A stretch of DNA of 64,000 nucleotides from Burkholderiales bacterium (GTDB taxonomy: Bacteria > Pseudomonadota > Gammaproteobacteria > Burkholderiales > Burkholderiaceae_C), in assembly GCA_017307855.1 (NCBI GenBank), contig JAFKGD010000016.1:18941-82940 (forward strand). The letters run 5' to 3'. Positions 4,173 through 28,569 of this stretch are shown here, piece after piece (the stretch's first letter is position 1; every line of letters starts with the position of its first letter). A model generated the notes under the pieces. It worked only from the letters and a program-made list of their open reading frames with translations. It searched no databases and had not been told where the DNA came from. A program made the position numbers and the translations under genes.

Positions 4173-4523
4173 TCAGGAGCCGCGGTAGGTGCTGTAGCTC
4201 CAGGGGCTCACGAGCAGCGGCACGTGGTAGTGCTGTTCGGCGTGGGCGACGCCGAAATCCAGGCTGACCTGGTCGAGGAAGCTGGGCTCGGGCAGCGCGA
4301 CGCCCCGGGCCTTGAAGTAGCCCGCCACATCGAACACCAGGCGGTAGGTGCCCACCTTCAGGCTGGCGTTGTCGAACAGCGGCGCGCCGGTGCGGCCGTC
4401 GTGATTGAGCGTGTGGCGCTGCAGCAGCGTGGCCTCGCCACCCTGCGTGCTGTAGAGGCTGACCTGCATGCCGGCGGCGGGGCAGCCATTCATGGTGTCC
4501 AGGACGTGGGTGCTCAGGCCCAT
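4173..4523 (-). CDS. uraH: 5-hydroxyisourate hydrolase (transthyretin-like)
   Basis: Hydrolyses 5-hydroxyisourate to 2-oxo-4-hydroxy-4-carboxy-5-ureidoimidazoline (OHCU), the step after PuuD. At 116 residues it has the usual length. The N-terminal STHVLD motif with its catalytic His, the DGRTG loop, and the C-terminal YRGS signature of transthyretin-like HIU hydrolases are all present. The ATG at 4521-4523 gives the canonical MGLSTHVLD start; the frame stays open upstream but runs through the operator. It is transcribed divergently from the GntR regulator, with the GTGTATACAC palindrome about 90 bp upstream, so it is probably controlled by that regulator. Confidence 0.95.
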   Translation of the reverse strand: MGLSTHVLDTMNGCPAAGMQVSLYSTQGGEATLLQRHTLNHDGRTGAPLFDNASLKVGTYRLVFDVAGYFKARGVALPEPSFLDQVSLDFGVAHAEQHYHVPLLVSPWSYSTYRGS

Positions 4524-4610
4524 GGCGAATCCTTCGGTGCGGCGCGCGGCCGTGGCGGTTGGAAGGTGGCACCGTCCGCGCTCGGGCGAAGCCGCCGATT
4601 TGTCGACAGC

Positions 4611-4624
4611 AAGTGTATACACTT
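4611..4624. promoter_or_regulatory. AAGTGTATACACTT palindrome between uraH and gntR
   Basis: A perfect 14-bp palindrome placed in the 116-bp divergent region, 15 bp before the regulator start and about 90 bp before uraH. The 10-bp core is identical to the site at 786-795 before puuD. Position and symmetry suggest autoregulation of the GntR gene and control of uraH. Confidence 0.65.
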
Positions 4625-4639
4625 TTGGCGCACGCAACT

Positions 4640-5335
4640 ATGATGGACGGCATGGACCAGCCCGTCGCTGCCCCGCCTTCCACCACGCGCGCCATCGTCG
4701 ATGCGCTCACGCGCGCCATCGCCACGCGCCGCCTGCTGCCTGGCAGCAAGCTGGCCGAGCAAAAGCTCGCCGACCACTTCGGCGTCTCGCGTACGCTGGT
4801 GCGGCAGGCGCTGTTCCAGCTCTCGCAGAACCGGCTGATCCGTCTGGAGCCGGCGCGTGGCGCCTTCGTGGCGGCACCGTCGGCAGCGGAGGCGCGCCAG
4901 GTTTTCGCCGTGCGCCGCATGCTGGAGGCCGGGATGACGCGTGCGTTCGTGCGCGAGGCCACGCCGGCCCGACTGCGCGCGCTGCGCGAGCATGTGGCGC
5001 ACGAGAAGGCTGCCATGGCGCGCGGCGACACGCAGGGCCGCAATGAACTGCTGGGCGACTTCCACGTGCGCATGGCCGAGCTGATGGGCAACGAGGTGCT
5101 GGCACAGATGCTGGGCGAGCTGGTGTCGCGCTGCGCCCTCATCACCCTCATGTACCAGAGCGAGAGCGCCGCCGAGCACTCGAGCGAGGAGCACGCCGGG
5201 ATCGTCCGGGCCCTCGCCGCGCGCGATGCCGGGCGCGCGGTGCAGCTCATGGACGAGCACCTGCAGAACGTCGAGCGCAATCTCGAGTTCGACCGCAAGC
5301 TGCCGGCGAGCGACATCTCGCTGGCCCTCTCCTGA
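4640..5335 (+). CDS. GntR-family (FadR/FCD) regulator of purine catabolism
   Basis: DNA-binding regulator of 231 residues. Residues about 15-75 form the GntR winged helix-turn-helix, with KLAEQKLADHFGVSRTLVRQAL as the recognition region, followed by an all-helical FCD ligand domain containing the metal-ligand pattern (D..FH near the DFHVRM segment, later H in SSEEHAGIV). The ATG at 4640 was chosen because an upstream extension would translate the operator. The gene faces uraH and is followed 17 bp later by puuE, so it likely heads the puuE/uraD-allC operon. The ligand is probably a pathway intermediate such as urate or allantoin; this is inference. Confidence 0.85.
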   Translation: MMDGMDQPVAAPPSTTRAIVDALTRAIATRRLLPGSKLAEQKLADHFGVSRTLVRQALFQLSQNRLIRLEPARGAFVAAPSAAEARQVFAVRRMLEAGMTRAFVREATPARLRALREHVAHEKAAMARGDTQGRNELLGDFHVRMAELMGNEVLAQMLGELVSRCALITLMYQSESAAEHSSEEHAGIVRALAARDAGRAVQLMDEHLQNVERNLEFDRKLPASDISLALS

Positions 5336-5352
5336 CCCTATTTCCTTCGACC

Positions 5353-6306
5353 ATGGCCCGGCACTACGACTCCACCCTGCCCTATCCCCGCGACCTGGTC
5401 GGCTACGGCCGCGACGTGCCGCACGCCCGCTGGCCCGGCGGCGCGCGCATCGCCGTGCAGTTCGTGCTCAACTACGAAGAAGGCGGCGAGAACGCCACGC
5501 TGCATGGCGACGCGGGCTCGGAGCAGTTCCTCTCCGAAATGTTCAATCCGGCCGCCTACCCCGACCGGCACATGAGCATGGAGGGCATCTACGAATACGG
5601 GTCGCGCGCGGGCGTGTGGCGCATCCTGCGCGAGTTCGAGCAGCGCGGCCTGCCGCTCACCGTGTTCGGCGTCAGCATGGCGCTGCAGCGGCACCCCGAG
5701 CTCACCGCCGCGTTCCGCGAGCTGGGCCACGAGATCGCCTGCCACGGCTGGCGCTGGATCCACTACCAGAACATCGACGAAGCCACCGAGCGCGAGCACA
5801 TGCAGGTGGGCATGCAGATCATCCGCGAGCTCACCGGTGAACGCCCGCTGGGCTGGTACACCGGCCGCGACAGCCCGCGCACCCACCGGCTGGTGGCCGA
5901 CTACGGCGGCTTCGAGTACGACAGCGACTACTACGGCGACGACCTGCCCTTCTGGATGAAGGTGCGCAAGACCGATGGCATCGTGGTGCCGCAGCTGGTC
6001 GTGCCCTACACGCTCGACACCAACGACATGCGCTTCTCGCTGCCGCAGGGCTTCGCGCAGGGCGACGACTTCTTCACGTACCTGCGCGACAGCTTCGATG
6101 CGCTCTACGCCGAAGGCGATCCGTCAGGTCTCGACCGCCCGAAGATGCTCAGCGTGGGCCTGCACTGCCGCCTGCTGGGCCGGCCCGGGCGCATCGTCGC
6201 GCTGCAGCGCTTCCTCGACCACGTGCAGAAGCACGACAAGGTGTGGGTGTGCCGCCGCATCGACATCGCGCGGCACTGGAAGCAGGCCCATCCGTTCACC
6301 GAATGA
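5353..6306 (+). CDS. puuE: Allantoinase PuuE (polysaccharide-deacetylase fold)
   Basis: Opens the hydantoin ring of allantoin to give allantoate. The 317-residue protein belongs to the PuuE class, unrelated to the amidohydrolase-type AllB, and has the typical start YPRDLVGYGRDVPHARWPGG, the VQFVLNYEEGGE segment, the EIACHGWRWIHYQ motif with metal-binding histidines, and the late GLHCRLLGRPGR segment. It sits between the GntR regulator and the uraD-allC fusion with only 3 bp to the latter, so they form one operon. Confidence 0.95.
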   Translation: MARHYDSTLPYPRDLVGYGRDVPHARWPGGARIAVQFVLNYEEGGENATLHGDAGSEQFLSEMFNPAAYPDRHMSMEGIYEYGSRAGVWRILREFEQRGLPLTVFGVSMALQRHPELTAAFRELGHEIACHGWRWIHYQNIDEATEREHMQVGMQIIRELTGERPLGWYTGRDSPRTHRLVADYGGFEYDSDYYGDDLPFWMKVRKTDGIVVPQLVVPYTLDTNDMRFSLPQGFAQGDDFFTYLRDSFDALYAEGDPSGLDRPKMLSVGLHCRLLGRPGRIVALQRFLDHVQKHDKVWVCRRIDIARHWKQAHPFTE

Positions 6307-6309
6307 CCC

Positions 6310-8127
6310 ATGAATGACGCGAGTCACGCCACCATGCCCCTGACACTCGAGCAGCTCAACACCGCCGACGCGGCGCAGGCCGTGGCCTGGCTGGGCGGCA
6401 TCTACGAACACTCGCCGTGGATCGCCGAGGCCGCGCTGGCGCAGCGCCCGTTCCGCTCGCTGGCCCACCTCAAGCACGCGATGGCGCAAGTGGTCACCGA
6501 AGCTGGCGACGCGCCGCAGCTCGCGCTGATCCGCGCCCACCCCGAACTGGCGGGCAAGGCCATGGTCAGCAAGACCCTCACCGCCGAATCCACGAACGAG
6601 CAGGGCAAGGCAGGCCTCACCGAGTGCACACCCGAAGAGTTCGCCACCCTGCAGAAACTCAACGCCGACTACAACGCGAAATTCGGCTTCCCCTTCATCG
6701 TGGCCGTGCGCGGGCCGCGCGGCAGCGGCATGACGCGCGGCGAGATCATCGCCACCTTCGCCCGGCGCCTGGCCAACCCGGTGGACTTCGAACGCGCCGA
6801 GGCGCTGCGCAACATCCACCGCATCGCCGAGATCCGGCTGGCCGACCTGTTCGACGCCGTGCCGTACACCGGCAACGAAGTGTGGGACTGGCACGAGCGC
6901 CTCGCGCAGCACAGCGACCCGGGTTTCGCCGAACGCGGCGAGCTCACCGTCACCTACCTCACCGACGCCCACCGCGCCTGCGCGCAGCAGATCGTGCAGG
7001 ACATGCGCGAGTGCGGCTTCGACGACGTGCACGTCGATGCCGTGGGCAACGTGGTGGGGCGCTACCACGCCAGTCTGCCGGATGCGAAGTACCTGCTCAC
7101 CGGTTCGCACTACGACACGGTGCGCAACGGCGGCAAGTACGATGGACGCCTGGGCATCTACGTGCCGCTGGCAGCCGTCAGGCAACTGGCAGCCACCGGC
7201 CGGCGGCTGCCGTTCGGCATCGAGGTGGTGGGATTCGCCGAAGAAGAGGGCCAGCGCTACAAGGCGACGTTCCTGGGATCGGGCGCGCTGACGGGCGACT
7301 TCAATCCCGCCTGGCTCGACCAGCAGGACGCCGACGGCGTGCCGATGCGCGAGGCCATTCGCCTGGCGGGGCTGGACGTGTCGGCCATCCCCGCGCTGCG
7401 CCGCGATGCGCGCGACTACCTCGGCTTCGTCGAGGTGCACATCGAGCAGGGGCCGGTGCTCAATGAGCTGAATCTGCCGCTGGGCATCGTCACCTCCATC
7501 AACGGCGGCGTGCGCTTCCAGGGGCAGGTTGTCGGCATGGCCAGCCACGCCGGCACCACGCCCATGGATCGCCGCCGCGACGCGGCCGCCGCCGTGGCCG
7601 AGCTCACGCTCTACGTCGAGCGCCGCGCCGCCCAGGACGGCGACTCGGTCGGCACCGTGGGCATCGTCGAGGTGCCCGGCGGCTCGATCAACGTCGTGCC
7701 CGGCCGCTGCCGCTTCACGCTCGACCTGCGCGCACCCGTCGACACGCAGCGCGACGCGCTGGTGGCCGAGGTGCTGGCCGAACTGCACGCGCTGTGCGAG
7801 CGGCGCGGCGTGCGCGTCGAGATCGAGGAAACCATGCGCGCCGCCGCGGCGCCCAGCGCGCCCGCGTGGCAGCAGCGCTGGGAGGCCGCCGTCGATGCGC
7901 TGGGCGTGCCGATCCACCGCATGCCCAGCGGCGCCGGCCACGACGCCATGAAGCTGCACCAGGTGATGCCGCAGGCGATGCTGTTCGTGCGCGGACAGAA
8001 CTCCGGCATCAGCCACAACCCGCTCGAATCCACCACGGCCGACGACATCCAGCTGGCCGTCGATGCCTTCTCGCACCTGCTCGGCCAACTGGCCGCCGAA
8101 CCCGCATCCACCGCTCCCCGCCCATGA
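6310..8127 (+). CDS. Bifunctional OHCU decarboxylase / allantoate amidohydrolase fusion
   Basis: A 605-residue fusion of two pathway enzymes that flank PuuE in the route. Residues about 10-165 are OHCU decarboxylase (UraD): RAHPELAGK near 75-83, then FGFPFIVAVRG and the helical RLAN segment. From about 185 to 595 it is an M20-type allantoate amidohydrolase (AllC): metal ligands in GSHYDTVRNGGKYDGRLG near 265-282, GFAEEEGQR, HIEQGP, the dimer-domain MASHAGTTPMDRR, and SGAGHDAM and SHNPLE near the end. The UraD part makes S-allantoin; the AllC part cleaves allantoate to ureidoglycine and then ureidoglycolate, releasing CO2 and ammonia. There is no frameshift between domains. The stop overlaps the next start by four bases. 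Confidence 0.93.
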   Translation: MNDASHATMPLTLEQLNTADAAQAVAWLGGIYEHSPWIAEAALAQRPFRSLAHLKHAMAQVVTEAGDAPQLALIRAHPELAGKAMVSKTLTAESTNEQGKAGLTECTPEEFATLQKLNADYNAKFGFPFIVAVRGPRGSGMTRGEIIATFARRLANPVDFERAEALRNIHRIAEIRLADLFDAVPYTGNEVWDWHERLAQHSDPGFAERGELTVTYLTDAHRACAQQIVQDMRECGFDDVHVDAVGNVVGRYHASLPDAKYLLTGSHYDTVRNGGKYDGRLGIYVPLAAVRQLAATGRRLPFGIEVVGFAEEEGQRYKATFLGSGALTGDFNPAWLDQQDADGVPMREAIRLAGLDVSAIPALRRDARDYLGFVEVHIEQGPVLNELNLPLGIVTSINGGVRFQGQVVGMASHAGTTPMDRRRDAAAAVAELTLYVERRAAQDGDSVGTVGIVEVPGGSINVVPGRCRFTLDLRAPVDTQRDALVAEVLAELHALCERRGVRVEIEETMRAAAAPSAPAWQQRWEAAVDALGVPIHRMPSGAGHDAMKLHQVMPQAMLFVRGQNSGISHNPLESTTADDIQLAVDAFSHLLGQLAAEPASTAPRP

Positions 8128-9377
8128 CGACCGCTTCCACCGACCACCAGAGACTCGACGCCTGGATCGACGCGCATTTCGACGACGAGGTCGCCTTCCT
8201 GCAGCAACTGGTGCGCGTGCCCACCGACACGCCGCCCGGCAACAACGCACCGCATGCCGAGCGCACGGCCGAGCTGCTGGCCGGCTTCGGCTGGCAGGCC
8301 GAGAAGTTTCCCGTGCCCGCCGACGAGGTGCGCGCCTACGGGCTCGAATCCATCACCAACCTGATCGTGCGCCGCCGCTTCGGCGAGGGCGGTCTGACCA
8401 TCGCCCTCAACGCCCACGGCGACGTGGTGCCGCCCGGCGAGGGCTGGACGCATGACCCCTACGGCGGCGAGATCGAGGAGGGACGCATGTACGGCCGCGC
8501 CACGGCCGTGAGCAAGAGCGACTTCGCCACGTTCAGCTTCGCGCTGCGCGCGCTGGAAGCGCTCGGCGCGCCGATCAAGGGCGCCGTGGAACTGCACTTC
8601 ACCTATGACGAGGAATTCGGCGGCGAGATGGGCCCGGGCTGGCTGCTGAAGAACGGGCACACGAAGCCCGACCTGATGATCGCCGCCGGCTTCAGCTACG
8701 AGGTCGTCACCGCGCACAACGGCTGCCTGCAGATGGAAGTGACGGTGCACGGCAAGATGGCGCACGCGGCCATCCCGTCCACGGGGGTCGATGCGCTGCA
8801 GGGCGCGGTGCACATCCTCTCGGCGCTCTACAGGCTCAACGATGGCTACCGTGCCATCACCTCGCAGGTGCCCGGCATCACCCACCCCTACCTCAACGTG
8901 GGCCGCATCGAAGGCGGCACCAACACCAACGTCGTGCCCGGCAAGGTGGTGTTCAAGCTCGACCGCCGCATGATCCCGGAAGAGAACCCGGCCGAGGTCG
9001 AAGCCGCCATCCGCGCCACCATCGCAGAGGCCGCCGCTGACTTCGGCGCGCGCGGCCCGGCCATCACGGTGGACATCCGCCGCCTGCTGCTCGCCCACTC
9101 GATGCGACCGCTGCCAGGCAACCGGCCGCTGGTCGAGGCCATCCAGCGCAACGGCGCCGAGGTGTTCGGCCAGCCGATCCCCGACGTGGGCACGCCGCTC
9201 TATACCGACGTGCGGCTCTACGGCGAGCACGGCGTGCCCGGCGTGATCTATGGCGCCGGCCCGCGCACGGTGCTCGAATCGCACGCCAAGCGCAGCGACG
9301 AGCGGCTGGAGCTGGACGACCTGCGCCGCGCCACGAAAGTGATCGCGCGCTCGCTGCTCGATTTGTTGGTGGCCTGA
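8124..9377 (+). CDS. M20-family metallopeptidase/amidohydrolase
   Basis: A 417-residue zinc-dependent amidohydrolase of the ArgE/DapE/CPG2 superfamily. Metal-binding motifs are visible: NAHGDVVPPGEGW (His about 98, Asp about 100), TYDEEFGGEMG around 165, and the C-terminal ESHAKRSDE region; the lid domain contains GKMAHAAIP. It overlaps the uraD-allC stop (ATGA), so it belongs to the purine operon. Because no ureidoglycolate lyase is visible, it could handle ureidoglycolate or another carbamoyl-type intermediate, but the sequence alone does not establish the substrate; a peptidase-like role is also possible. Confidence 0.8.
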   Translation: MTTASTDHQRLDAWIDAHFDDEVAFLQQLVRVPTDTPPGNNAPHAERTAELLAGFGWQAEKFPVPADEVRAYGLESITNLIVRRRFGEGGLTIALNAHGDVVPPGEGWTHDPYGGEIEEGRMYGRATAVSKSDFATFSFALRALEALGAPIKGAVELHFTYDEEFGGEMGPGWLLKNGHTKPDLMIAAGFSYEVVTAHNGCLQMEVTVHGKMAHAAIPSTGVDALQGAVHILSALYRLNDGYRAITSQVPGITHPYLNVGRIEGGTNTNVVPGKVVFKLDRRMIPEENPAEVEAAIRATIAEAAADFGARGPAITVDIRRLLLAHSMRPLPGNRPLVEAIQRNGAEVFGQPIPDVGTPLYTDVRLYGEHGVPGVIYGAGPRTVLESHAKRSDERLELDDLRRATKVIARSLLDLLVA

Positions 9378-9620
9378 GGCGCCTCGTGCGCCGCACGCAG
9401 CATCTTTTGCACGAGCCCGGGGCACCAACCTAGGGCAATCCGCGATTGAGCGGCTTCAATTTCGCCCTCAAATAGGGAAATCTGGATGAATTAATGGCCA
9501 GATCGCACCGCCGTGGCGCAATGGGTTCTCCCTGCCATGGTGCGCGCGTGGAGTGGGCAGGCATCGATTTTGCTATTCGATGTACTCAGACAAATTTCCT
9601 TCTATCCACGGAGTTCCTTC

Positions 9621-10643
9621 ATGAAGAAACGCGCTTTCCTGCAGACCGTCGCCGCCCTGGCCGCCACCGCCTCGTTCGGCGTGGCCCAGGCGCAGACGCC
9701 GATCAAGTTCCAGCTCGACTGGCGCTTCGAAGGCCCCGCCGCCCTGTTCCTCGTGCCCGCCGCCAAGGGCTACTTCAAGCAGGCCGGCCTGGACGTGACG
9801 GTGGATGCCGGCAACGGCTCGGGCGGTACCGTGACGCGCGTGGCCTCGGGCACCTATGACATTGGCTTCGCCGACATGGCGGCACTGATGGAATTCCACG
9901 CCAACAACCCCGACGCACCCAACAAGCCGGTCGCGGTGATGATGGTCTACAACAACACGCCCGCTTCGGTGATGGCGCTCAAGAAGAGCGGCATCAAGAC
10001 GCCGGCCGACCTCAACGGCAAGAAGCTCGGCGCACCGGTGTTCGACGCCGGCCGTCGTGCCTTCCCGATCTTCGCGGCCGCCAACAAGGTGACCGGCGTG
10101 CAGTGGACGGCCATGGATCCCCCGCTGCGCGAAACCATGCTGGTGCGTGGCGACATCGATGCCATCACCGGCTTCACCTTCACCTCGGTGCTCAACCTGG
10201 AGGCCCGCGGCGTCAAGGCCGAGGACGTGGTGGTGCTGCAGTACCCCGACTACGGCGTGAAGCTCTACGGCAACGCCATCATCGCCAGCCCCAAGCTGAT
10301 CAAGGAGAACCCGGCCGCAGTGAAGGCGTTCCTCGCCGCCTTCGCCAAGGGCATGAAGGATGTGCTGGCCAACCCCGCCGCCTCGATCGAGACGGTGAAG
10401 GCCCGCGACGGCATCATCAACGTGCCGCTCGAAACGCGCCGCCTGAAGATGGCCATCGACACCGTGATCAACAGTCCCGACGCGCGCGCCGAAGGTTTTG
10501 GCCAGATCAACCCCGGCCGCATGTCGCTGATGGCTTCGCAAGTGTCCGACGCCTTCTCCACCAAGACCCGCGTCAACCCCGCGACCGTCTGGGACGGCTC
10601 GTTCCTGCCTACCAAGGCCGAACTGGACGTCCTGAAGAAGTAA
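9621..10643 (+). CDS. ABC transporter substrate-binding protein, NMT1/THI5-like
   Basis: Periplasmic binding protein of 340 residues for a nitrate/taurine/pyrimidine-class importer. A Sec signal peptide covers about residues 1-21 (KKRAFLQTVAALAATASFG then AQA). The mature part begins with IKFQLDWRFEGPAALFLVPAAKGYF, the NMT1/THI5-like pattern, with the typical GNGSGGTV ligand-binding loop near residue 60 and ADLNGKKLG further on. The ATG at 9621 was chosen for the signal peptide. It is followed by ATPase and permease genes. Close paralogue of the protein at 15147-16172. The ligand is probably a nucleobase or similar ring compound, given the deaminases nearby. Confidence 0.87.
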   Translation: MKKRAFLQTVAALAATASFGVAQAQTPIKFQLDWRFEGPAALFLVPAAKGYFKQAGLDVTVDAGNGSGGTVTRVASGTYDIGFADMAALMEFHANNPDAPNKPVAVMMVYNNTPASVMALKKSGIKTPADLNGKKLGAPVFDAGRRAFPIFAAANKVTGVQWTAMDPPLRETMLVRGDIDAITGFTFTSVLNLEARGVKAEDVVVLQYPDYGVKLYGNAIIASPKLIKENPAAVKAFLAAFAKGMKDVLANPAASIETVKARDGIINVPLETRRLKMAIDTVINSPDARAEGFGQINPGRMSLMASQVSDAFSTKTRVNPATVWDGSFLPTKAELDVLKK

Positions 10644-10649
10644 ATCAGG

Positions 10650-10760
10650 CTCGCCCCCCAGGCTTGCCCACTTCGTGCAGCCGCCACCCCCCTACCCGGG
10701 GGGACGGCGACTGCGGCCTGGCAAAGCCAGTGCCGCGGCGCCCCCGCTTTCTGAAAGACC
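10650..10760 (+). repeat. Intergenic structured repeat, copy 1 (between binding-protein and ATPase genes)
   Basis: The 120-bp gap between the binding-protein stop and the ATPase start holds C-rich and G-rich runs that can pair (CCCCCC with GGGGGG around 10687-10702) and the block CTGCGGCCTGGCAAAGCCAG. The complement of 30920-31029 shows the same order of blocks (CCCCCAGGCT, CTTCG-like loop, CCCCCCT, CTGCGGCCnGGCAAnGCC, CCGCGG). Both copies follow a binding-protein gene in the same orientation. Likely a REP-like mRNA element. Confidence 0.6.
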
Positions 10761-10763
10761 GCC

Positions 10764-11597
10764 TTGAACGACGCCGCCTCCCCATCCTCATCCTTCGTCG
10801 ACTTCCGCGACGTCTGGCTGGCCTACAACGACGAGTTGCTGGCGCAGAACCACTTCGCGGTCGAAGCCATCAACCTGCAGGTGAAGAAGGGCGAGTTCAT
10901 CGCCATCGTCGGACCCTCGGGCTGCGGCAAGTCCACCTTCATGAAGCTCACGACGGGGCTGCGCATGCCCTCGATGGGCAAGATCCTGATCGACGGCCAG
11001 CCGGTCACCGGCCCGCTCAAGATCTCGGGCATGGCATTCCAGGCGCCCTCGCTGCTGCCCTGGCGCACCACGGTCGACAACGTGCTGCTGCCGCTGGAGA
11101 TCGTCGAGCCCTATCGCAGCAACTTTTCGAAGAACCGCAAGCAGTACGAGGAGCGTGCCCGCAAGCTGCTGCAGAAGGTGGGCCTGGGCGGCTATGAGGA
11201 CAAGTTCCCCTGGCAGCTCTCGGGCGGCATGCAGCAGCGCGCCAGTATCTGCCGCGCGCTCATCCACGAACCCAAGATGCTGCTGCTCGACGAGCCCTTC
11301 GGCGCGCTCGACGCGTTCACGCGCGAGGAGCTGTGGTGCATCCTGCGCGACCTCTGGACCGAACAGCAGTTCAACGTGATCCTGGTCACGCACGACCTGC
11401 GCGAGAGCGTGTTCCTGGCCGACACCGTGTACGTGATGAGCAAGAGCCCGGGCCGCTTCGTGGTCAAGCGCGAGATCGACCTGCCGCGCCCGCGCGATCT
11501 GGAAGTCACCTACACCAAAGAATTCACCGACATCGTGCTCGAACTGCGCGGCCACATCGGCGCGATCCGCAAGACCGGCGCCGCGATCAACCAGTAA
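10764..11597 (+). CDS. ABC transporter ATP-binding protein (nitrate/sulfonate/nucleobase class)
   Basis: Cytoplasmic ATPase of 277 residues energising the importer with the flanking binding protein and permease. Walker A GPSGCGKST near residue 51, Q-loop in MAFQAPSLLPW, signature LSGGMQQR, Walker B MLLLDEPFGALD and the H-loop VTHDLRES are all present. The start is TTG at 10764, read in frame with no better ATG; the leader is serine-rich. An insertion (EPYRSNFSKNRKQYEERA) between Q-loop and signature is characteristic of this subgroup. The operon order is binding protein, repeat, ATPase, permease, deaminase. Confidence 0.9.
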   Translation: MNDAASPSSSFVDFRDVWLAYNDELLAQNHFAVEAINLQVKKGEFIAIVGPSGCGKSTFMKLTTGLRMPSMGKILIDGQPVTGPLKISGMAFQAPSLLPWRTTVDNVLLPLEIVEPYRSNFSKNRKQYEERARKLLQKVGLGGYEDKFPWQLSGGMQQRASICRALIHEPKMLLLDEPFGALDAFTREELWCILRDLWTEQQFNVILVTHDLRESVFLADTVYVMSKSPGRFVVKREIDLPRPRDLEVTYTKEFTDIVLELRGHIGAIRKTGAAINQ

Positions 11598-11615
11598 GAA
11601 GTACGGACCCGCACA

Positions 11616-12386
11616 ATGGCAAACAAGAAACAGATCGAGATCTGGTCGCCCTGGATCCTGCTGGTCGCCGTGATCCTGCTGTGGCAGATCATCTGCTCGG
11701 CGTTCAACGTCTCCGAATTCATCTTCCCGAGCCCGGCCCGCATCTGGGAACAGTTCTGGGAATTCAAGCTCATCATCGCCGGCCATGCCTGGCGCACGTA
11801 CTGGGTGACGATGGCCGGCTTCGGCCTGGCGATCGTGGTCGGCGTGCTGCTGGGCTTCGTGATCGGCAGTTCGCGCCTGGCCTACGCGGCGATGTACCCG
11901 CTGATGACGGCGTTCAACGCGCTGCCCAAGGCCGCCTTCGTGCCCATCCTCGTGGTGTGGTTCGGCATCGGCGTCGGCCCGGCCATCCTTACGGCATTCC
12001 TGATCAGCTTCTTCCCGATCATGGTGAACATCGCCACCGGCCTGGCCACGCTCGAGCCCGAGCTCGAAGACGTGCTGCGCGTGCTGGGCGCCAAGCGCTG
12101 GGACGTGCTGATCAAGGTCGGCCTGCCTCGCTCGATGCCCTACTTCTTCGGCTCGCTGAAGGTCGCGATCACGCTGGCCTTCGTGGGCACCACGGTGTCG
12201 GAGATGACGGCGGCCAACGAAGGCATCGGCTACCTGCTGATTTCGGCCGGCTCGGCCATGCAGATGGGCCTGGCGTTCGCCGGCCTGCTGGTGGTGGGTG
12301 CGATGGCCATGCTGATGTATGAGCTGTTCAGCTTCATCGAGAAGCACACCACCGCCTGGGCGCACCGCGGAAGCCAGAACCAGTGA
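11616..12386 (+). CDS. ABC transporter permease, nitrate/taurine/pyrimidine class
   Basis: Inner-membrane permease of 256 residues with six predicted helices. The EAA-type cytoplasmic loop is clear at about residues 155-175 (LEDVLRVLGAKRWDVLIKVGLPRS). The start ATG at 11616 lies 18 bp after the ATPase stop, and the TGA overlaps the GTG of the downstream deaminase, so transport and deamination genes are translationally linked. That linkage is the main argument that the cargo carries an exocyclic amine. Confidence 0.9.
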   Translation: MANKKQIEIWSPWILLVAVILLWQIICSAFNVSEFIFPSPARIWEQFWEFKLIIAGHAWRTYWVTMAGFGLAIVVGVLLGFVIGSSRLAYAAMYPLMTAFNALPKAAFVPILVVWFGIGVGPAILTAFLISFFPIMVNIATGLATLEPELEDVLRVLGAKRWDVLIKVGLPRSMPYFFGSLKVAITLAFVGTTVSEMTAANEGIGYLLISAGSAMQMGLAFAGLLVVGAMAMLMYELFSFIEKHTTAWAHRGSQNQ

Positions 12387-12859
12387 GCCCGGAGCAACAG
12401 ATCGCGGCCCTGCGGCGCGCCGACGCCGTGGCGCGCCGTGCCATGGCGATGGGCCGGCATCCCTTCGGCGCGCTGCTGCTGGCGCCGGACGGTGAAACGG
12501 TACTGGCCGAGCAGGGCAACATCGACACGGTGAACCACGCCGAGTCGACGCTCGCGCGCACGGCCGCCGCCAACTATCCTGGCGAGTACCTTGCGCGCTG
12601 CACGCTGGTGACCACGTTCGAGCCCTGCGCCATGTGTGCAGGAACGATCTACTGGGCCGGCATCGGGCGCGTGCTGTACGGGGCGGAGGAAACCGAACTA
12701 CTCGCTCTCACGAACGACCACCCCGAGAACCCGACGCTGAGTCTCCCGTGCCGCGACGTGTTTGCGCGCGGTCAGCGGGCGGTGGAGGTGGTCGGTCCGG
12801 TGGCCGCCGTGCGGGCGGAGATGGTGGCGACCCACCAGGGCTTCTGGCAGGCCCGCTGA
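12383..12859 (+). CDS. Nucleoside/nucleobase deaminase (CDA superfamily), copy A
   Basis: Zinc-dependent deaminase of 158 residues. The zinc site is intact: HAE in the TVNHAEST segment (His and catalytic Glu, near residue 53) and PCAMCAGTIYW (two cysteines, near 84). The FGALL and GRHPF segments are typical of the guanine/tRNA-adenosine/cytosine deaminase group. It starts with GTG overlapping the permease stop by four bases. A paralogue lies at 17188-17706. The substrate could be guanine, cytosine or a modified base; sequence cannot decide between these. Confidence 0.85.
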   Translation: MSPEQQIAALRRADAVARRAMAMGRHPFGALLLAPDGETVLAEQGNIDTVNHAESTLARTAAANYPGEYLARCTLVTTFEPCAMCAGTIYWAGIGRVLYGAEETELLALTNDHPENPTLSLPCRDVFARGQRAVEVVGPVAAVRAEMVATHQGFWQAR

Positions 12860-12874
12860 GATCGCGCGGCGGCG

Positions 12875-13510
12875 TCAGCCCTGCTCGCGCCACCAGGCGT
12901 GCAACGCCTCGATCTCCCCGGAACACAGCAGCGGCATGGCGTCGCGGATGCGCTCGATCGGCCAATCCCACCAGCGCATCTGCAGCAGCAGCGCGATCCG
13001 CTCGTCCGGGAAACGCTTCCTGATCGTGCGCGCCGGGTTGCCGCCGACGATGGCGTAGGGCTCGACATCGCGCGTCACCACCGCGCGGCTTGCGATGACG
13101 GCACCGTCGCCGATGGTCACACCAGCCATCACGATGGCTTCGGCGCCCATCCAGACATCGTTGCCCACGACGGTATCTCCGGCAGGCTGCCAGGCATCGA
13201 GCGCCTGGGCGAAAGCGGGCTCCTCCTTCATGTAGAAGAAGGGGAACGACGACACCCAGTCGTACCGGTGTCCCTGGTTGCCGGCCATCACGAAAGACAC
13301 GCCCGTGCCGATCGAGCAGAAGCTCCCGATGCGCAGGCGATCGGCCGCCGCGCCAGGCTCGGGCGAGAGGTAACGGGCGCAGTCGTCAAAAGAGTGCCCG
13401 TGGTAGTAGCCCGAGTAGTAGCTGTAGCGGCCCACCTCGATGTTGGGATTGGTGACCTGCTCCGAAAGGAGCCGGCCCTTGAAGGGGCTGTCGAAGAAGT
13501 TGTCGCGCAT
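12875..13510 (-). CDS. CatB-related hexapeptide O-acetyltransferase
   Basis: Left-handed beta-helix acetyltransferase of 211 residues in the xenobiotic acetyltransferase (CatB/Vat) family. The pattern [16 protein letters not shown], the catalytic-His region near [11 protein letters not shown], and hexapeptide repeats from [20 protein letters not shown] through [12 protein letters not shown] are visible, with WWDWP in the C-terminal helix region. The ATG at 13510 was chosen because the upstream extension lacks family similarity. Chromosomal CatB-like proteins of this kind often have unknown substrates; antibiotic resistance should not be assumed. It is convergent with deaminase A. Confidence 0.85.
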
Positions 13511-13595
13511 GCTCCCGATTGTCGTCGGCACACGCACCGCCGGGCCGGCCGGCAAGGGCAAGCGCGCGGCGCGCCCGAAGGCACGCCGCCGGTCC

Positions 13596-14585
13596 TCAGT
13601 ACTTCTTGTTGAAATTGGCGCGGATGCGTTCGGCCAGATAGTCCCCGGCCGTGATCGGCGGGTACTTGCCGGAAGGCGACTCGATCAGCGCATCGGTATT
13701 GGCCTGGCAGAAGAACGCCAGGCTGTAGCGCGGCCCCATGTATTCGCCCGGCAGTGGGTTCTTCACGCGGTGGAAGTTGCTGGGCAGCTGGTCGTCGCTC
13801 CAGCGCATCAGCATGTCGCCGATGTTGCAGGTGATGTAGTCCTCCTCGGGCGGGATGGACGTCCACTCCTGCGCGTCCATCTCCTTGCCCGGGCACACCT
13901 GCAAGCCGCCCTGGCCCTGGCGCTGGTAGAGCAGCGTGAGGCAGTCGAAGTCGGTGTGGGCACCGGCGCGCCACAGGTCGAGCTTGTCCTGCGCTTCGGG
14001 CGGGATGGCGTAGTAGTGCAGCATGCGCAGCGTGCTCTGATAGGTCTCGCTCGACGGGTCGTGGGCCCGCGTGAAGAACTCGCGGTCGAAGCCGAGCTTG
14101 TCGGCGAAGCACGAGAGCACGCGCATGCCGACGGCCCAGCTCGCCTCCTCGAAAGCCAGCATGGTCGCCTTGAAGCCCGGCAGCTCTTCCTCGGTGGGAT
14201 AGAGCCCGGCCATGCGCGGGCGCGTGATCTGGTAGCTCTCCTTCTGGTCGGCCGTGCCGGTGGAAGGACGCACCTGCTTGCGGCTTTCCCAGCCGGCGTT
14301 GCGCGCCAGCGGATACTGGCCCTTGACCTCGTCGGGCAGCGCGAAGAACTTCTCGCTCATGGCGAAGGCCTCGCGCATCTGCGCCAGCGGGACGCCGTGG
14401 TTCTTGAGCTGGAAGAAGCCCACGTCGATGGAGGCGTCCCAGAGCTGGTCGGCGATCTCGGCGCGCCGGTTCTCGAAGTCGGCAAGATCGATGACGCGGA
14501 TCTCGCGCGTGGTGTTCTCCGAACCCATCGCGCCCATGCGCGATTCCTTCTGCAGTTCGGCCATGTCGTAGGTGGCGGTGCTCAT
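13596..14585 (-). CDS. 2-oxoglutarate/Fe(II) oxygenase, isopenicillin N synthase-like, copy A
   Basis: Non-haem iron oxygenase of 329 residues. The N-terminal DIOX_N part contains IRVIDLADF and [11 protein letters not shown]; the C-terminal 2OG-FeII part carries the iron triad in [14 protein letters not shown] (HxD near residue 210) and FHRVKNP (distal His), followed by RYSLAFF, the RxS 2OG-binding pair. It is divergent from the second binding-protein gene across a 561-bp region with a matched pair of 17-bp sites. Relatives include fungal thymine 7-hydroxylase and plant hormone oxidases; here oxidation of a nucleobase substituent is a reasonable guess given the deaminases and transporter. Confidence 0.85.
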
Positions 14586-14729
14586 GTGTCGTGCTCCTGA
14601 ATCGGTCGTCGAAAACGTCGGGGGTGAACAGGCTGCAGCCCGTGACGCAAAGACCGTGGAAGCAGGGAGCAGGCCGGGATGTGGCTGACTCGCACGAACT
14701 CCTGAAGTCTTCTCGCTCGGACGCGAACC

Positions 14730-14746
14730 TCAAGAGCAATTCCCGG
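14730..14746 (-). promoter_or_regulatory. 17-bp site, copy facing oxygenase A
   Basis: Read toward the oxygenase gene the element is CCGGGAATTGCTCTTGA, about 145 bp before its start. It matches 16 of 17 positions of the copy at 15039-15055, and each copy has the same orientation relative to its own downstream gene. This suggests a shared activator or repressor site for the two divergent transcripts. Confidence 0.55.
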
Positions 14747-15038
14747 ACAGCCGATACATCGATCCGGCTGGTGAACGCTTCTACTCTTGCGCGGATTATG
14801 CAAACGCCCCGCCGCAAGCTCAAGCAGAAAAAGCAGGAACGGCGCGGCTTTTACACATCGCACCATCGCGGCGCGCGGACGCCAGCCGCGCGGCATGCCC
14901 ATGCATCGTCATGGACATCGTGGCGCCGCGCGTTGGTGCACGCAGCACGCGGCGCGCCTCCGCCGGGCATGGCATGGAAGCTGCAACGAGGAACATCACG
15001 GAGTAGAAGCGTTCAGCGCGGGGCCATCGGCCTTTCGC

Positions 15039-15055
15039 CCGGAAATTGCTCTTGA
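15039..15055 (+). promoter_or_regulatory. 17-bp site, copy facing binding protein 2
   Basis: CCGGAAATTGCTCTTGA, about 92 bp before the binding-protein ATG, with one mismatch to the copy facing the oxygenase gene. See the copy at 14730-14746. Confidence 0.55.
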
Positions 15056-15146
15056 AGCGGTGGCGCCTTCCGCAGGGAAAGCCACTGTCGTGGTGCTGCA
15101 CGCGCAGCATCGTTCAACGAGTCCGTTTCCTTCAGGAGAGCTTCAC

Positions 15147-16172
15147 ATGCAACGCCGTTCGATCCTCCGCGCCGCTGGCGCCGCCTCGATGCTCGCCGCC
15201 ACGCCGTTCGTGCGCGCGCAGGGTTCGCTCAAGCCCTTCAAGTTCAACCTCGGCTGGAAGGTCGAAGCCTCGGGCGCGGGGTTCCTGCTGGCGCATCAGC
15301 GCGGCTACTACAAGGACGCCGGCCTCGATGTGGCCATCGACACGGGCAACGGCTCGGCCGCCGCGATCAGCCTGGTGGGCAGCGGCGCCTACGACGTGGC
15401 CTCGGCCGACCTGTCGTCGATGATCGAGTTCAACGTGGCCAACCCGCAGGCCGCGCTCAAGGCCGTCGCGATCCAGTACGACCTGAACCCCAACGCCATC
15501 ATCGTGCGCCGCGATGGCCCCATCAAGAAGCCGTCCGACCTGGCCGGCAAGACGCTGCTGGGCCAGCCTTTCAACGCCTCGCGCAAGCTGTTCCCCGTGT
15601 TTGCCAAGGCCCAGGGCTTCGATGGATCGGGCGTGAAGTGGGAGAACGTCGCGCCCGACATCGGCGACACCCGCTTCGTCAAGGGCGACTTCGACGGCTC
15701 GGCCTACTTCTTCTTCACCGGCCTGCTCAACCTGAAGGCGCGCGGCATGACGCCCGAGCAGCTGACCGTGTTCCGCTTCTCCGACTACGGCATGAAGTCG
15801 TATGGCAACGGCCTGGTCGCCAATGCCAAGAGCATGGAGCAGGCCGACGCGATGCGCGCCTTCGTCAAGGCCACCACGCGCGGCTGGATCGAATGCATCG
15901 CCGACCCGAAGGCGGGCGGCGCCGCCATCAAGGCGCGCGAGCCGCTGGCCAATCAGGACATCGAGACCGAACGCCTGCAACTCATCGTTGATGGCACGAT
16001 GAAGACGCCCGACGTGCGCGCCAACGGCTGGGGCGCGGCGACGCCGGCCCGCCTGCAGGCCACCATCGACGAAACGGTGGGCGCCTTCGGCCTCAAGAGC
16101 ACGCCCACGGTGGCCGACTTCTTCACCGACCGCTTCCTGCCTTCGGCCGCCGATCGCAAGCTCAAGGCCTGA
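15147..16172 (+). CDS. ABC transporter substrate-binding protein 2, NMT1/THI5-like (orphan)
   Basis: Periplasmic binding protein of 341 residues, paralogous to the one at 9621. The leader QRRSILRAAGAASMLAAT resembles a Tat- or Sec-type signal with RR. The mature part starts FKFNLGWKVEASGAGFLLAHQRGYY and keeps the GNGSAAAISLV loop. The ATG at 15147 follows AGGAG. No ATPase or permease is adjacent; the nearest are 3-5 kb upstream, so it may dock to that transporter or act with components elsewhere. It is followed 32 bp later by oxygenase B and then deaminase B, so uptake, oxidation and deamination are in one transcript. Confidence 0.85.
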   Translation: MQRRSILRAAGAASMLAATPFVRAQGSLKPFKFNLGWKVEASGAGFLLAHQRGYYKDAGLDVAIDTGNGSAAAISLVGSGAYDVASADLSSMIEFNVANPQAALKAVAIQYDLNPNAIIVRRDGPIKKPSDLAGKTLLGQPFNASRKLFPVFAKAQGFDGSGVKWENVAPDIGDTRFVKGDFDGSAYFFFTGLLNLKARGMTPEQLTVFRFSDYGMKSYGNGLVANAKSMEQADAMRAFVKATTRGWIECIADPKAGGAAIKAREPLANQDIETERLQLIVDGTMKTPDVRANGWGAATPARLQATIDETVGAFGLKSTPTVADFFTDRFLPSAADRKLKA

Positions 16173-16204
16173 TCGCCGATCACAGCCATCGCAGGAGTCG
16201 CATC

Positions 16205-17191
16205 ATGGGCATTCCGGTCATCGACCTGGAAGGCGCTCGGGCGCCGGGCGGTCCGCGCAGCGCCGAGGTGGCGCAGGCGTTCCGCGCGGCGGCCATGGCG
16301 TCCGGGTTCTTCTACATCCGCAATCATGGCGTCGCGGCCGAGCTGATCGCCGCGCAGTTCGAGGCGACGCGCGCGCTCATGGCGCTGCCGGTCGGGCGGC
16401 GCGAGCAGTTGTCGATCAAGCGCTCGCCCATCATGCGGGGCTTCGAGGGGCTGGGCGCGCAGACGCTCGATGCCGCGATGAACCCCGACCTCAAGGAGAG
16501 CTTCTACTGCGGCATGGACTGGCCGGCCGACCATCCGTACGTGAAGGCCGGCTACCAGACCTATGGCCCGAGCCAGTGGCCCGAAGAACTGCCCGCCGTG
16601 CGCCCGCAGTGCGAGGCCTACATCGACGCGATGAACACGCTGTCGCTGCGGCTGATGCAGCTGATGGCGCTCTCGCTCGGACTGCCCGAGGATTACTTCG
16701 ACGCCGCCTGCAAGGACCCGATGGTCACCTTGCGCATGGTGCGCTATCCGCCGCATCCCGAGAATGCCGACGAGCGCACCTTCGGCGCCGGTGCGCACAC
16801 CGACTGGGGCGCGGTGACCATCCTCGCGCAGGATTCGCATGGCGGCCTGGAGGTGCAGATGCCCGATGGCTCCTGGGTGGCGGCCACGCCGATGGAGGGC
16901 ACCTTCGTGGTCAACCTCGGCGACATGATTCCGCGCTGGACCAACGGCCTCTACCACTCCAACCCGCACCGCGTGCGCAACACGTTCTCGGGCGGGGCGG
17001 CACGCTATTCGATCCCGTTCTTCTACGAGCCCGAGTTCACCGCGCGGATCGTGGCCGTGCCCGGCACCGTGCCCGTCGGCGAGCTGCCGCGCTTTGCGCC
17101 CTGCACTGCCGGCGAGCACCTGGAAGAGATGTATCGCAAGTCGTACAACCTCAAGGAACTGCCGCGCGAGACCGCCGGGGTCGAGGCATGA
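16205..17191 (+). CDS. 2-oxoglutarate/Fe(II) oxygenase, isopenicillin N synthase-like, copy B
   Basis: Non-haem iron oxygenase of 328 residues. It opens with IPVIDLEGAR and has GFFYIRNHGV in the DIOX_N part; the iron triad is GAHTDWGAVTILAQ near residue 200 and NPHRVRN near 260, with RYSIPFF for 2OG binding. It is a diverged paralogue of copy A: same fold and motif set but clearly different mid-region (KESFYCGMDWP against [11 protein letters not shown]), so the two probably act on different substrates or successive steps. The stop overlaps the deaminase B start by four bases. Confidence 0.85.
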   Translation: MGIPVIDLEGARAPGGPRSAEVAQAFRAAAMASGFFYIRNHGVAAELIAAQFEATRALMALPVGRREQLSIKRSPIMRGFEGLGAQTLDAAMNPDLKESFYCGMDWPADHPYVKAGYQTYGPSQWPEELPAVRPQCEAYIDAMNTLSLRLMQLMALSLGLPEDYFDAACKDPMVTLRMVRYPPHPENADERTFGAGAHTDWGAVTILAQDSHGGLEVQMPDGSWVAATPMEGTFVVNLGDMIPRWTNGLYHSNPHRVRNTFSGGAARYSIPFFYEPEFTARIVAVPGTVPVGELPRFAPCTAGEHLEEMYRKSYNLKELPRETAGVEA

Positions 17192-17706
17192 GCAAAGAAG
17201 CTCGCGACACCTTCCCCGCAGAGCAGGCGCTGTCCGAGCGCGACGCGCTCTATCTACGCCAGGCCATTGCCGTCTCGCGCACGGCGCGCGAGCGCGGCAA
17301 CCGGCCGTTCGGCGCCGTCATCGTGGCGGCTGACGGCAGCGTGCTGCAGGAAGCCTGGAACGCCAACATGGAGAGCGGCGACTGCACGGCGCATGCCGAG
17401 ACCAGCGCCGTGCGCCTGGCGAGCCCGAAGTTCAGCCGCGAGCAGCTCGCAGGGGCCACGCTCTACTCGTCGGGAGAGCCCTGCGTGATGTGCGCCGGTG
17501 CGATCTTCTGGTCCAACATCCGACGCGTGGTGTTCGGCATCGACGCAGAACGCCTGCGGGTGTTCCGTGGCGAGCGGCAGGAGCAGCGCGATGCCGAACT
17601 CTCATGCCGCGACGTGTTCGACGCCTCGCCGCACGCGATCGAGTGCATCGGTCCCGCGCTCATCGACGAGTCGAGCGCGCCGCACGTCGGGCACTGGAAG
17701 ACCTGA
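17188..17706 (+). CDS. Nucleoside/nucleobase deaminase (CDA superfamily), copy B
   Basis: Zinc deaminase of 172 residues with an intact site: TAHAETSAV (His, Glu) near residue 70 and PCVMCAGAIFW near 99. GNRPFGAVIVAADG matches the guanine deaminase/tRNA deaminase group. The ATG overlaps the oxygenase B stop. It is a paralogue of copy A (12383-12859); both end with the CRDVFA/CRDVFD block and a VVGP/CIGP strand, which marks a shared recent ancestry. Substrate unknown; an aminated ring compound delivered by the linked binding protein is likely. Confidence 0.85.
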   Translation: MSKEARDTFPAEQALSERDALYLRQAIAVSRTARERGNRPFGAVIVAADGSVLQEAWNANMESGDCTAHAETSAVRLASPKFSREQLAGATLYSSGEPCVMCAGAIFWSNIRRVVFGIDAERLRVFRGERQEQRDAELSCRDVFDASPHAIECIGPALIDESSAPHVGHWKT

Positions 17707-24678: not shown

Positions 24679-24680
24679 TC

Positions 24681-27285: not shown

Positions 27286-28569
27286 TCAGCCGGCCTGCGC
27301 GATGACCGTGCGCTCGATCAGCCGGTCGTCGCCCAGCACGATCATCGAGAACAGCAGTTCGGCCAGGTCGCGCGCCTGCGCCGTCTTGCGCGCCAGCAGC
27401 GGCGTCGCCTGTGGGTTGAGCACGAGGAAATCCGCGTCGCAGCCGCGCCGCAGGTTGCCCACCACGCCCTCCAGCCCCAGCGCGCGCGCGGCACCCGCCG
27501 TGTGCAGCCACCACAGCCGCCCGGGCGACAGCGACAGGCCGGGCTTGGTCTGCCCTTCGCGGCCCACGTAGTAGGCGGCCAGCATGGTATGGAACGGACT
27601 GAAGCTGGTGCCGCCGCCCACGTCGCTGGCCAGCCCGTGCAGGTAGCCCACGCGGTCGGCGCCCTCGAAGTCGAAGAAGCCGCTGCCCAGGAACAGGTTG
27701 CTGGTCGGGCTGACGGCGGCGGCCGTGCCGGTGGCGCGCATCAGCGCGCGGTCTTCGTCATCGAAGTGGATGCAATGCGCGTACACCGCGCGCTCGCGCA
27801 TCAGGCCGAAGCCTTCGTACACGGCAAGGTAACTGCGTGCGTCGGGAAACAGCTCGTGGGCCCAGCGCACCTCGTCGAGGTTTTCGGCCACGTGCGACTG
27901 GATCCACACGTCGGGGTGCTTCGCCGCCAGCTCGCCCGCGCCCGCCAGCTGCGCGTCGGTGCAGCTGGGCGCGAAGCGCGGCGTGATGGCGTAGCCGAGC
28001 CGGCCGACGCCGTGCCACTTGCGGATCAGCGATTCGGTGTCGATCAGGCTCTGCTCGGTGTCGTCGCGCACGCCGTCGGGGCTGTGGCGGTCCTGCAGGC
28101 ATTTGCCGGTGATCAGGCGCAGGCCACGCGCCTGCGCGGCGCCGAACAGCGCATCGACCGACGCCGGATGCGAGGTGGAGAACGTGAGCGCCGTGGTGAC
28201 GCCATTGCGTGCCAGCTCGTCGAGGAAGAACCCGGCCGTGGCCGCGGCGTAGGCGCCGTCGGCGAAGCGCGATTCATGCGGAAAGGTGTAGTTCTCGAGC
28301 CAGGGCAGCAGGCCGGGCGCGGGCGCGCCGATCACGTCGGTCTGAGGGTAGTGGATGTGCATGTCCACGAAGCCGGGCGCGAGGATGCGGCCGGGCAGGT
28401 GCTCCACCGCCACGCCGGCGTAGTCGGCGTGCAGCGCCTGCCAGTTGCCGGCCGCACGGATGACCTGGCTGCCCTGAGCGTCGGGCCCCACGACCAGCAG
28501 GCCATCGGACTCGAACTGGGGCTGGCCCTCGTCGTCGAAATTCAGCAGGCTGGCACGGTAGGCTTTCAT
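27286..28569 (-). CDS. guaD: Guanine deaminase
   Basis: Converts guanine to xanthine and ammonia. The 427-residue amidohydrolase has the first metal motif in APGFVDMHIHYPQTDVIG near residue 70, the family-specific PWLENYTFPHE, the second metal/His group in WIQSHVAEN, and FHTMLAAYYVG with the preceding DVGGGTSFSPF. The ATG at 28567-28569 is used; an upstream TTG would add three residues. It is downstream of a BMP binding protein and Add in a purine salvage string. Confidence 0.93.
   Translation of the reverse strand: MKAYRASLLNFDDEGQPQFESDGLLVVGPDAQGSQVIRAAGNWQALHADYAGVAVEHLPGRILAPGFVDMHIHYPQTDVIGAPAPGLLPWLENYTFPHESRFADGAYAAATAGFFLDELARNGVTTALTFSTSHPASVDALFGAAQARGLRLITGKCLQDRHSPDGVRDDTEQSLIDTESLIRKWHGVGRLGYAITPRFAPSCTDAQLAGAGELAAKHPDVWIQSHVAENLDEVRWAHELFPDARSYLAVYEGFGLMRERAVYAHCIHFDDEDRALMRATGTAAAVSPTSNLFLGSGFFDFEGADRVGYLHGLASDVGGGTSFSPFHTMLAAYYVGREGQTKPGLSLSPGRLWWLHTAGAARALGLEGVVGNLRRGCDADFLVLNPQATPLLARKTAQARDLAELLFSMIVLGDDRLIERTVIAQAG

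Follow-up and report, generated by a model that had tools for sequence, protein, structure and literature searches.

What compound is handled by a bacterial gene cluster in which two binding proteins, two oxygenases and two deaminases share a single ATP-binding cassette (ABC) transporter beside a urate pathway? The cluster lies at positions 9621–17706 of the window, the stretch of 64,000 nucleotides of Burkholderiales bacterium DNA (contig JAFKGD010000016.1) analysed here, and encodes the binding proteins NMT1a and NMT1b, the Fe(II)/2-oxoglutarate (2OG) oxygenases OxyA and OxyB and the zinc deaminases DeamA and DeamB. Our best reading is that the locus takes up a pteridine or guanine-like base, oxygenates and deaminates it and feeds the product into xanthine/urate. 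The NMT1/ABC/oxygenase/deaminase unit as such is well supported, and the probability that it is a xanthine-riboswitch-controlled scavenging system for a 2-amino-4-oxo bicyclic heterocycle, most likely a pteridine, is, in our estimate, about 0.5.

The first part of the answer comes from the control of the locus. An Rfam search found two RF03054 aptamers back to back in the gap between the divergent OxyA and NMT1b genes, one per leader, both directly upstream of operons and above the gathering score of 36. Both were also recovered in a genome-wide RF03054 search, and folding predicted that the aptamer 3' strand is able to pair with downstream sequence. Because these aptamers lead OxyA and NMT1b-OxyB-DeamB, the locus is a member of the regulon already described for the xanthine riboswitch (NMT1 motif). 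According to Yu and Breaker, the NMT1 motif RNA is an OFF switch that responds to xanthine and urate, found upstream of pcbC (IPNS-like), NMT1, tauA, hcaE/PDR, PRK12393 and tadA genes, whose aptamer rejects N-methylated xanthines (PMC7373994); the structure of the xanthine riboswitch has been published as well (PMC8266621). That these gene types go with the riboswitch had thus already been described, whereas the original prediction, made from the sequence alone, knew of no named system with such a gene set. The authors suggested, from the analogy with HpxDE, a role in purine oxidation, and noted that the precise functions had not been established (PMC7373994). The present analysis adds the mutual exclusion of two oxygenases, the alternation of deaminases, the coexistence of the system with xanthine dehydrogenase (XDH) and guanine deaminase (GuaD), and the link to pterin deaminases. 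No paper tying the xanthine riboswitch to pterins was found in the literature collection surveyed by titles and abstract openings, a result that applies to that collection only.

The system was surveyed in 150 genomes of the same family (below, G000 is the genome of the window itself, other G numbers are other genomes and L numbers are loci fetched around hits). OxyA orthologues were counted at E ≤ 1e-60, a Rieske oxygenase at a sequence identity of at least 55% and DeamB at a sequence identity of at least 54%; this left out Rieske matches of 46% (G000) and 48% (G053) and DeamB-like proteins below 54%. The genomes are related and some are metagenome-assembled, so that the p values, which assume independence, ignore shared ancestry; genes of relatives were called by a rough codon-usage script that misses some, above all at lower G+C. 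RF03054 was found in 30 of the 150 genomes, 29 of which have OxyA or the Rieske oxygenase. In the exception, G074, what comes after the riboswitch is a piece of an amidohydrolase, then 76 residues that by eye look like a Rieske C-terminus and had no Pfam match (L060:6417-7585), then DeamB and DeamA. A sequence pattern for the riboswitch recovered 55 of 55 Rfam check hits (44 of them from the 51 RF03054 rows of the genome search, the remainder coming from the own genome or from places that the loci did not cover) and had no hits in mononucleotide shuffles. It gave 214 hits in the fetched loci, which are sets that overlap in genomes. The next gene was of the NMT1 type in 100 cases, OxyA in 54, the Rieske oxygenase in 48 and DeamB in three; an isoxanthopterin-deaminase type, another amidohydrolase and an unlabelled OxyA-like gene followed once each, and six hits had no called gene within 800 bases.

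Analysis of the oxygenases showed that OxyA is present in 17 of the 150 genomes and that a Rieske oxygenase (PF00355), which elsewhere takes the OxyA slot, is present in 20 others; at these thresholds no genome has both. Across all 150 genomes this lack of overlap alone is not significant (p 0.075). Among the 28 genomes with a member of the DeamB clade, 14 have OxyA, 12 have the Rieske enzyme, none has both and two have neither (were the two independent, such a lack of overlap would have a probability of 3e-6). The same pattern was seen in 80 named loci from a DeamB scan (Variovorax, Acidovorax, Paracidovorax, Comamonas, Hydrogenophaga, Pigmentiphaga and others), 35 with OxyA, 38 with the Rieske enzyme, none with both and seven with neither; the named and family sets share some genomes, and since a number of the named loci span less than 20 kb, 'neither' can mean cut off. 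Even two genomes of the same genus, G020 and G147, differ in oxygenase type. OxyA and the Rieske enzyme probably catalyse one and the same reaction. Across the phylum (398 genomes), 14 genomes have OxyA at E ≤ 1e-80, some of them from families of other orders or classes; seven have a match to the Rieske profile (E ≤ 1e-60), one of these matches being the weaker paralogue of the own genome. That paralogue (46% identical to the slot enzyme; L186, G000:C4:212500-231000, at about 8495-9418) has an ABC transporter and an NMT1-like gene nearby. The oxygenases are thus spread over further families, orders and classes of the phylum, often together with transporter and deaminase genes and under xanthine riboswitches.

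The deaminases alternate in a similar way. In 20 distant stretches with OxyA or the Rieske oxygenase, an amidohydrolase was labelled in eight (L171, L172, L174, L182, L184, L185, L189, L190) and a CDA-type deaminase in five (L173, where it lies beside xdh genes, L174, L180, L181, L188); in 12 of the 20, one of these deaminases is accompanied by a complete or nearly complete set of NMT1, ATPase and permease genes. All seven amidohydrolases tested exceeded the PRK12393 cut-off of 543 (609–753 bits) and none reached that of 8-oxoguanine deaminase. Their solved relative is 2PAJ, which is 83% identical to the L184 protein, 40–70% to seven others and 37% to the 8-oxoguanine deaminase of the own genome; the L171 protein scored 645 bits against 2paj and 267 bits against 3hpa, and is closer to 2PAJ than to 8-oxoguanine deaminase. 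We take 2PAJ to be Sgx9339a, reportedly an isoxanthopterin deaminase in the work of Hall et al. 2010. Members of this family were found to act as deaminases on isoxanthopterin and pterin-6-carboxylate (Hall et al. 2010, as told in PMC5270733). Within the 150 genomes PRK12393 was above cut-off in 10 (six with matches below it were left out), eight of which have OxyA or the Rieske oxygenase, found in 37 of 150 overall (p 2e-4). Of the genomes with an oxygenase, PRK12393 is present in 6 of the 11 without DeamB and in 2 of the 26 with it (Fisher p 0.004), as expected if the PRK12393 enzyme does the job of DeamB. The partner deaminases of the relatives point to pteridines.

A further gene set lies next to DeamB in some relatives. 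In nine of the 80 named loci the genes behind DeamB come in one constant order, namely those for TetR, an FMN reductase, an amidohydrolase (c20), an L-PSP protein, a creatininase-like protein and a binding protein, with an FAD oxidase after the set in eight of the nine; relatives of the set stand alongside Rieske and/or isoxanthopterin-deaminase genes in L189, L206, L207 and L210. The c20 amidohydrolase (at least 54% identity; c20-like proteins of 40–44% were left out) occurs in 10 of the 150 genomes, nine of which have OxyA or the Rieske oxygenase (p 1e-5). Amid homologues of the c20 set, G121 and G146 have a c20 relative (39–40%) of 400 and 398 residues, with an L-PSP gene immediately after it. 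This fits the description of the pterin deaminase assayed from Variovorax, which has 399 residues and, in V. paradoxus, endoribonuclease genes downstream (PMC9513972, which also deals with folate degradation). The own genome has two c20 copies near an OxyB-like oxygenase (L199): L199 (G000:C12:247000-266900) and L200 hold two sets of TetR, amidohydrolase, creatininase-like, binding-protein, ABC and FAD-oxidase genes, adjoined by a 45% OxyB-like oxygenase, and are candidates for a further pteridine or related pathway. In L087, L093, L095 and L096 (about 9950-11180) DeamB forms a tandem pair whose second copy directly precedes the TetR/FMN reductase/c20 set.

OxyA itself resembles an enzyme acting on a nucleobase. 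Its best solved relative is thymine-7-hydroxylase (T7H; 5c3p, profile E 1.1e-44), which is also the best match of its predicted structure (pLDDT 83.5, TM 0.79, identity 31–33%), and the predicted fold gave no hint beyond T7H. Residues H210, D212, H272, R286 and S288 are invariant in 17 OxyA orthologues. In a by-eye alignment with a two-residue offset OxyA keeps R190, Y194, H214, D216, H271, R286, S288 and F292 of T7H, and thus the 2OG and iron ligands and the base-stacking Phe/Tyr, while F213 takes the place of Y217, a position where Phe has been reported in some species (residue roles as in PMC4787775). E122 and N294, which make water-mediated contacts to thymine in T7H (PMC4787775), are replaced by Gln (Q119 and Q294), so that OxyA, judged by its sequence, is T7H-like and not T7H proper. 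In OxyB, H198, D200, H255, R267 and S269 are invariant in nine orthologues; its best solved relative is 9ovh, according to its title a reconstructed ancestral enzyme. A pyrimidine pathway, with OxyA oxidizing the methyl group of thymine, 5-methylcytosine or the thiamine pyrimidine and a deaminase making a uracil, would suit the retained T7H residues and the binding proteins, whose NMT1/THI5 relatives, going by their names, bind thiamine-type pyrimidines. It appears very improbable in view of the xanthine riboswitch control, the purine-pathway neighbours and an aptamer that compounds of thiamin biosynthesis did not modulate (PMC7373994). Uptake of thiamine or hydroxymethylpyrimidine, suggested by the NMT1/THI5 name, was rejected on account of the same riboswitch control.

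The surroundings of the locus bear on the published idea of purine oxidation. A guanine-xanthine-urate-allantoin route is encoded nearby (Table 1), which makes OxyA, OxyB, DeamA and DeamB additions to it; at or beyond the window edge there are an 8-oxoguanine deaminase (705.7 bits, cut-off 532) and a protein that looks PuuD-like by eye and had no NCBIfam match. XdhB exceeded its cut-off in 124 of the 150 genomes. Of the 37 genomes that have either oxygenase, 36 were among these (G019 with joined pieces); the remaining one, G041, is 80% complete and has an XdhB fragment. The idea that the oxygenase substitutes for XDH was rejected on these counts. Plain purine oxidation as proposed by analogy with HpxDE of Klebsiella, in which oxygenases would convert hypoxanthine to xanthine and urate and the deaminases would act on guanine or adenine, accords with feedback by xanthine/urate (PMC7373994) and is nevertheless unlikely, since a hypoxanthine/xanthine hydroxylase module would be redundant beside XDH and, in the own genome, the canonical guanine deaminase and the 8-oxoguanine deaminase. 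Among the matches listed for hpxD/hpxE in the literature search, only the riboswitch paper (PMC7373994) was relevant. In insects, XDH converts pterin to isoxanthopterin (PMC11121863), an activity that would fit the company of XDH and these oxygenases.

From these patterns we infer a pteridine-type substrate class and the following order of steps. NMT1-type binding proteins and the single ABC transporter would import a 2-amino-4-oxo bicyclic heterocycle, likeliest a pteridine such as pterin or isoxanthopterin; OxyA, or in relatives the Rieske oxygenase, would hydroxylate it; and DeamB or DeamA, or in other operons the isoxanthopterin deaminase, would remove the ring amino group. The deaminated product would then be converted to xanthine and pass into the neighbouring xanthine dehydrogenase/urate/allantoin pathway, and rising xanthine/urate would shut down OxyA and NMT1b-OxyB-DeamB through the two riboswitches as product feedback. 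Work of the 1960s on Alcaligenes faecalis reportedly established a conversion of isoxanthopterin to tetraoxypteridine, xanthine-8-carboxylate and xanthine. Tetrahydroxypteridine cycloisomerase of this organism is EC 5.5.1.3, and we know of no gene assigned to the EC 5.5.1.3 route. The riboswitch-controlled oxygenases might be missing genes of this pteridine-to-purine route (hydroxylation, deamination and contraction to xanthine), a suggestion that we offer as tentative. If true, it would account both for the shut-off by xanthine and for the coexistence with complete XDH/urate pathways. No relevant literature on xanthine-8-carboxylate or tetraoxypteridine was found in the collection searched. 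In broader terms, the exchange patterns, taken with the link to pterin deaminases, leave a short list of substrates to test, and the system could link folate/pterin turnover to purine catabolism.

Several observations weigh against a pteridine substrate and its conversion to xanthine. The ligand of the riboswitch is a purine, and isoxanthopterin was acquired for the ligand tests, with no report of it as a ligand in the available parts of the paper (PMC7373994). Among the genes examined, neither a ring-contracting enzyme leading from pteridine to purine nor a decarboxylase for its product was identified, and the L173 operon consists of transporter, deaminase and oxygenase only. Among solved proteins, those closest to OxyA and, next after SxtT, to the Rieske enzyme oxidize methyl groups of thymine and methylxanthines, and DeamA and DeamB are similar to guanine, guanosine and tRNA-adenosine deaminases. 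The exclusion and alternation are imperfect, too: the OxyA genomes G000 and G053 also have the weaker Rieske paralogue (46–48%), deaminase types coexist in L174 (both) and in G108 and G147 (DeamB and PRK12393), and no deaminase was labelled in eight of the 20 distant stretches (L175, L176, L177, L178, L179, L183, L186, L187), although L187 has a 40% CDA-type match beside the permease that the gene caller missed. There is no PRK12393 match at 1e-120 in G000, we know of no physiological substrate of 2PAJ, and in L209 and L211 the PRK12393 gene lies, by eye, beside BMP-type and NCS2-like transporters in a purine context. The PRK12393 family may also act on purines, to judge by these neighbours.

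Should pteridines prove wrong, modified guanines are the next-best substrates and the ones closest to the original prediction of oxidative removal of a methyl or alkyl group followed by deamination. In such a salvage pathway the oxygenase would N-demethylate 7-methyl-, 1-methyl- or N2-methylguanine, or make 8-oxoguanine, and the deaminase would lead to xanthine/urate. The T7H-like OxyA, the guanine-deaminase-like DeamA and DeamB and the purine-type transporters adjoining PRK12393 would all suit it, as would the Rieske stand-in, whose closest solved relatives are SxtT/SxtDIOX and next the methylxanthine N-demethylases NdmA/NdmB. A xanthine/urate product likewise fits the riboswitch, and an aptamer that rejects N-methylated xanthines could sense the product without the substrate (PMC7373994). 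Against this, the alternative deaminase is a member of the isoxanthopterin/pterin-6-carboxylate deaminase family, falling below the 8-oxoguanine deaminase cut-off, and we regard modified-guanine salvage as doubtful, though a better candidate than plain purine oxidation. No paper on 7-methylguanine catabolism by guanine deaminase and a demethylase was found in the literature collection searched. In its general form, the original prediction that a nucleobase-like compound is taken up, oxygenated and deaminated to feed xanthine/urate is supported by the neighbourhoods and the xanthine riboswitches.

The genes of the locus (Table 1) are open frames of the Pfam families expected from the original prediction, with both predicted gene overlaps present; DeamA and DeamB have the HAE and PCxxC zinc motifs of CDA-type deaminases, and H69, E71, C99 and C102 are invariant in 23 DeamB sequences. 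The prediction that they form paralogous sets did not hold. Duplication of an A and a B set was rejected, since OxyA and OxyB are just 31% identical, DeamA and DeamB 39% and NMT1a and NMT1b 37%, and the modules are separate in other genomes; the oxygenase family of OxyA and OxyB has 11 matches in the own genome. Relatives carry NMT1a-ATPase-permease, often with DeamA, as one module (NMT1a orthologues of 68–85% lie upstream of the corresponding ATPase and permease), NMT1b adjoining OxyB as another (in 9 of the 10 other genomes with OxyB), and OxyA facing a further binding protein, NMT1d, with DeamB as a third; L180 and L181 have several modules within one stretch. In the window these modules appear to have been brought together in one place, without NMT1d. 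The DeamB clade is found in 28 of the 150 family genomes, and in G529 (L180:11018-12600) NMT1d-DeamB is followed by an OxyB-type gene (71%), so that OxyB and DeamB are neighbours in the reverse order of that in the window. A small glyoxalase/VOC-like protein, possibly an isomerase, overlaps or directly follows OxyB in 6 of the 10 other genomes with OxyB (L031, L032, L033, L046, L052, L059); in the window DeamB stands in its place.

Table 1. Features of the window that are discussed in the text
Feature	Position	Strand	Support or remark
Adjacent urate pathway: HiuH (-), GntR, PuuE allantoinase, UraD-AllC fusion, M20 hydrolase	4173..9377		
NMT1a, periplasmic binding protein (NMT1/THI5 family)	9621..10643	+	PF09084 1.9e-36
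ABC transporter ATPase	10764..11597	+	PF00005 1.1e-32
ABC transporter permease	11616..12386	+	PF00528 1.4e-24
DeamA, CDA-type zinc deaminase	12383..12859	+	PF00383 8.1e-16; GTGA overlap with permease
Hexapeptide acetyltransferase	12875-13513	-	Between DeamA and OxyA
OxyA, Fe(II)/2OG oxygenase, thymine-7-hydroxylase-like	13596..14585	-	PF03171/PF14226 (DIOX_N + 2OG-FeII_Oxy)
Xanthine riboswitch aptamer RF03054, OxyA leader	14729..14791	-	49.1 bits, gathering score 36
Xanthine riboswitch aptamer RF03054, NMT1b-OxyB-DeamB leader	14996..15056	+	48.3 bits, gathering score 36
NMT1b, periplasmic binding protein	15147..16172	+	PF09084 2.6e-34
OxyB, Fe(II)/2OG oxygenase, IPNS-like family	16205..17191	+	PF14226/PF03171
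DeamB, CDA-type zinc deaminase	17188..17706	+	PF00383 4.1e-24; ATGA overlap with OxyB
Canonical guanine deaminase, amidohydrolase type	27289..28569	-	TIGR02967 465.8 bits, cut-off 375.4
XdhB, xanthine dehydrogenase large subunit	38387..40636 (G000:C8:57327-59576)	+	TIGR02965 1174.3 bits, cut-off 849.5

Some neighbours deserve mention. The hexapeptide acetyltransferase is a singleton cluster among the family loci. A role of the M20 hydrolase as a folate carboxypeptidase G was not supported: its best NCBIfam matches were of the ArgE/DapE type, none above cut-off (best 25 of 56). Two adjacent large genes at 22432-27266 look cyanophycin synthetase-like by eye and would place a nitrogen store beside the purine genes. 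The urease accessory gene ureD is found near DeamB in many relatives (e.g. L037, L043, L051, L059, L070), and its cluster occurs in 46 of the 80 named loci (44 members labelled).

Comparison with known systems places the locus as follows. HpxDE-type purine oxidation takes over the role of xanthine dehydrogenase, a feature that the present system lacks as XdhB accompanies nearly all of its oxygenases. The isoxanthopterin deaminase family (2PAJ, PRK12393) provides the partner enzyme in relatives, whereas the deaminases of the window belong to another family, the CDA type. The likeness of the Rieske stand-in to NdmA/NdmB and SxtT is a sequence match (E about 1e-28 to 1e-31). Unlike T7H (5C3P-5C3S), OxyA is bacterial and riboswitch-controlled. 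The c20 relative of G121 and G146, likened above to the published description of the Variovorax pterin deaminase (PMC9513972), lies outside the window and is 39–40% identical to the version linked to DeamB loci. With the xanthine riboswitch (NMT1 motif, RF03054) regulon the window shares the same RNA and the same gene types downstream, and to the available account of that regulon, which has purine oxidation by analogy and in which they were not found (PMC7373994), the present comparison adds the oxygenase exclusion, the deaminase alternation and the pterin link.

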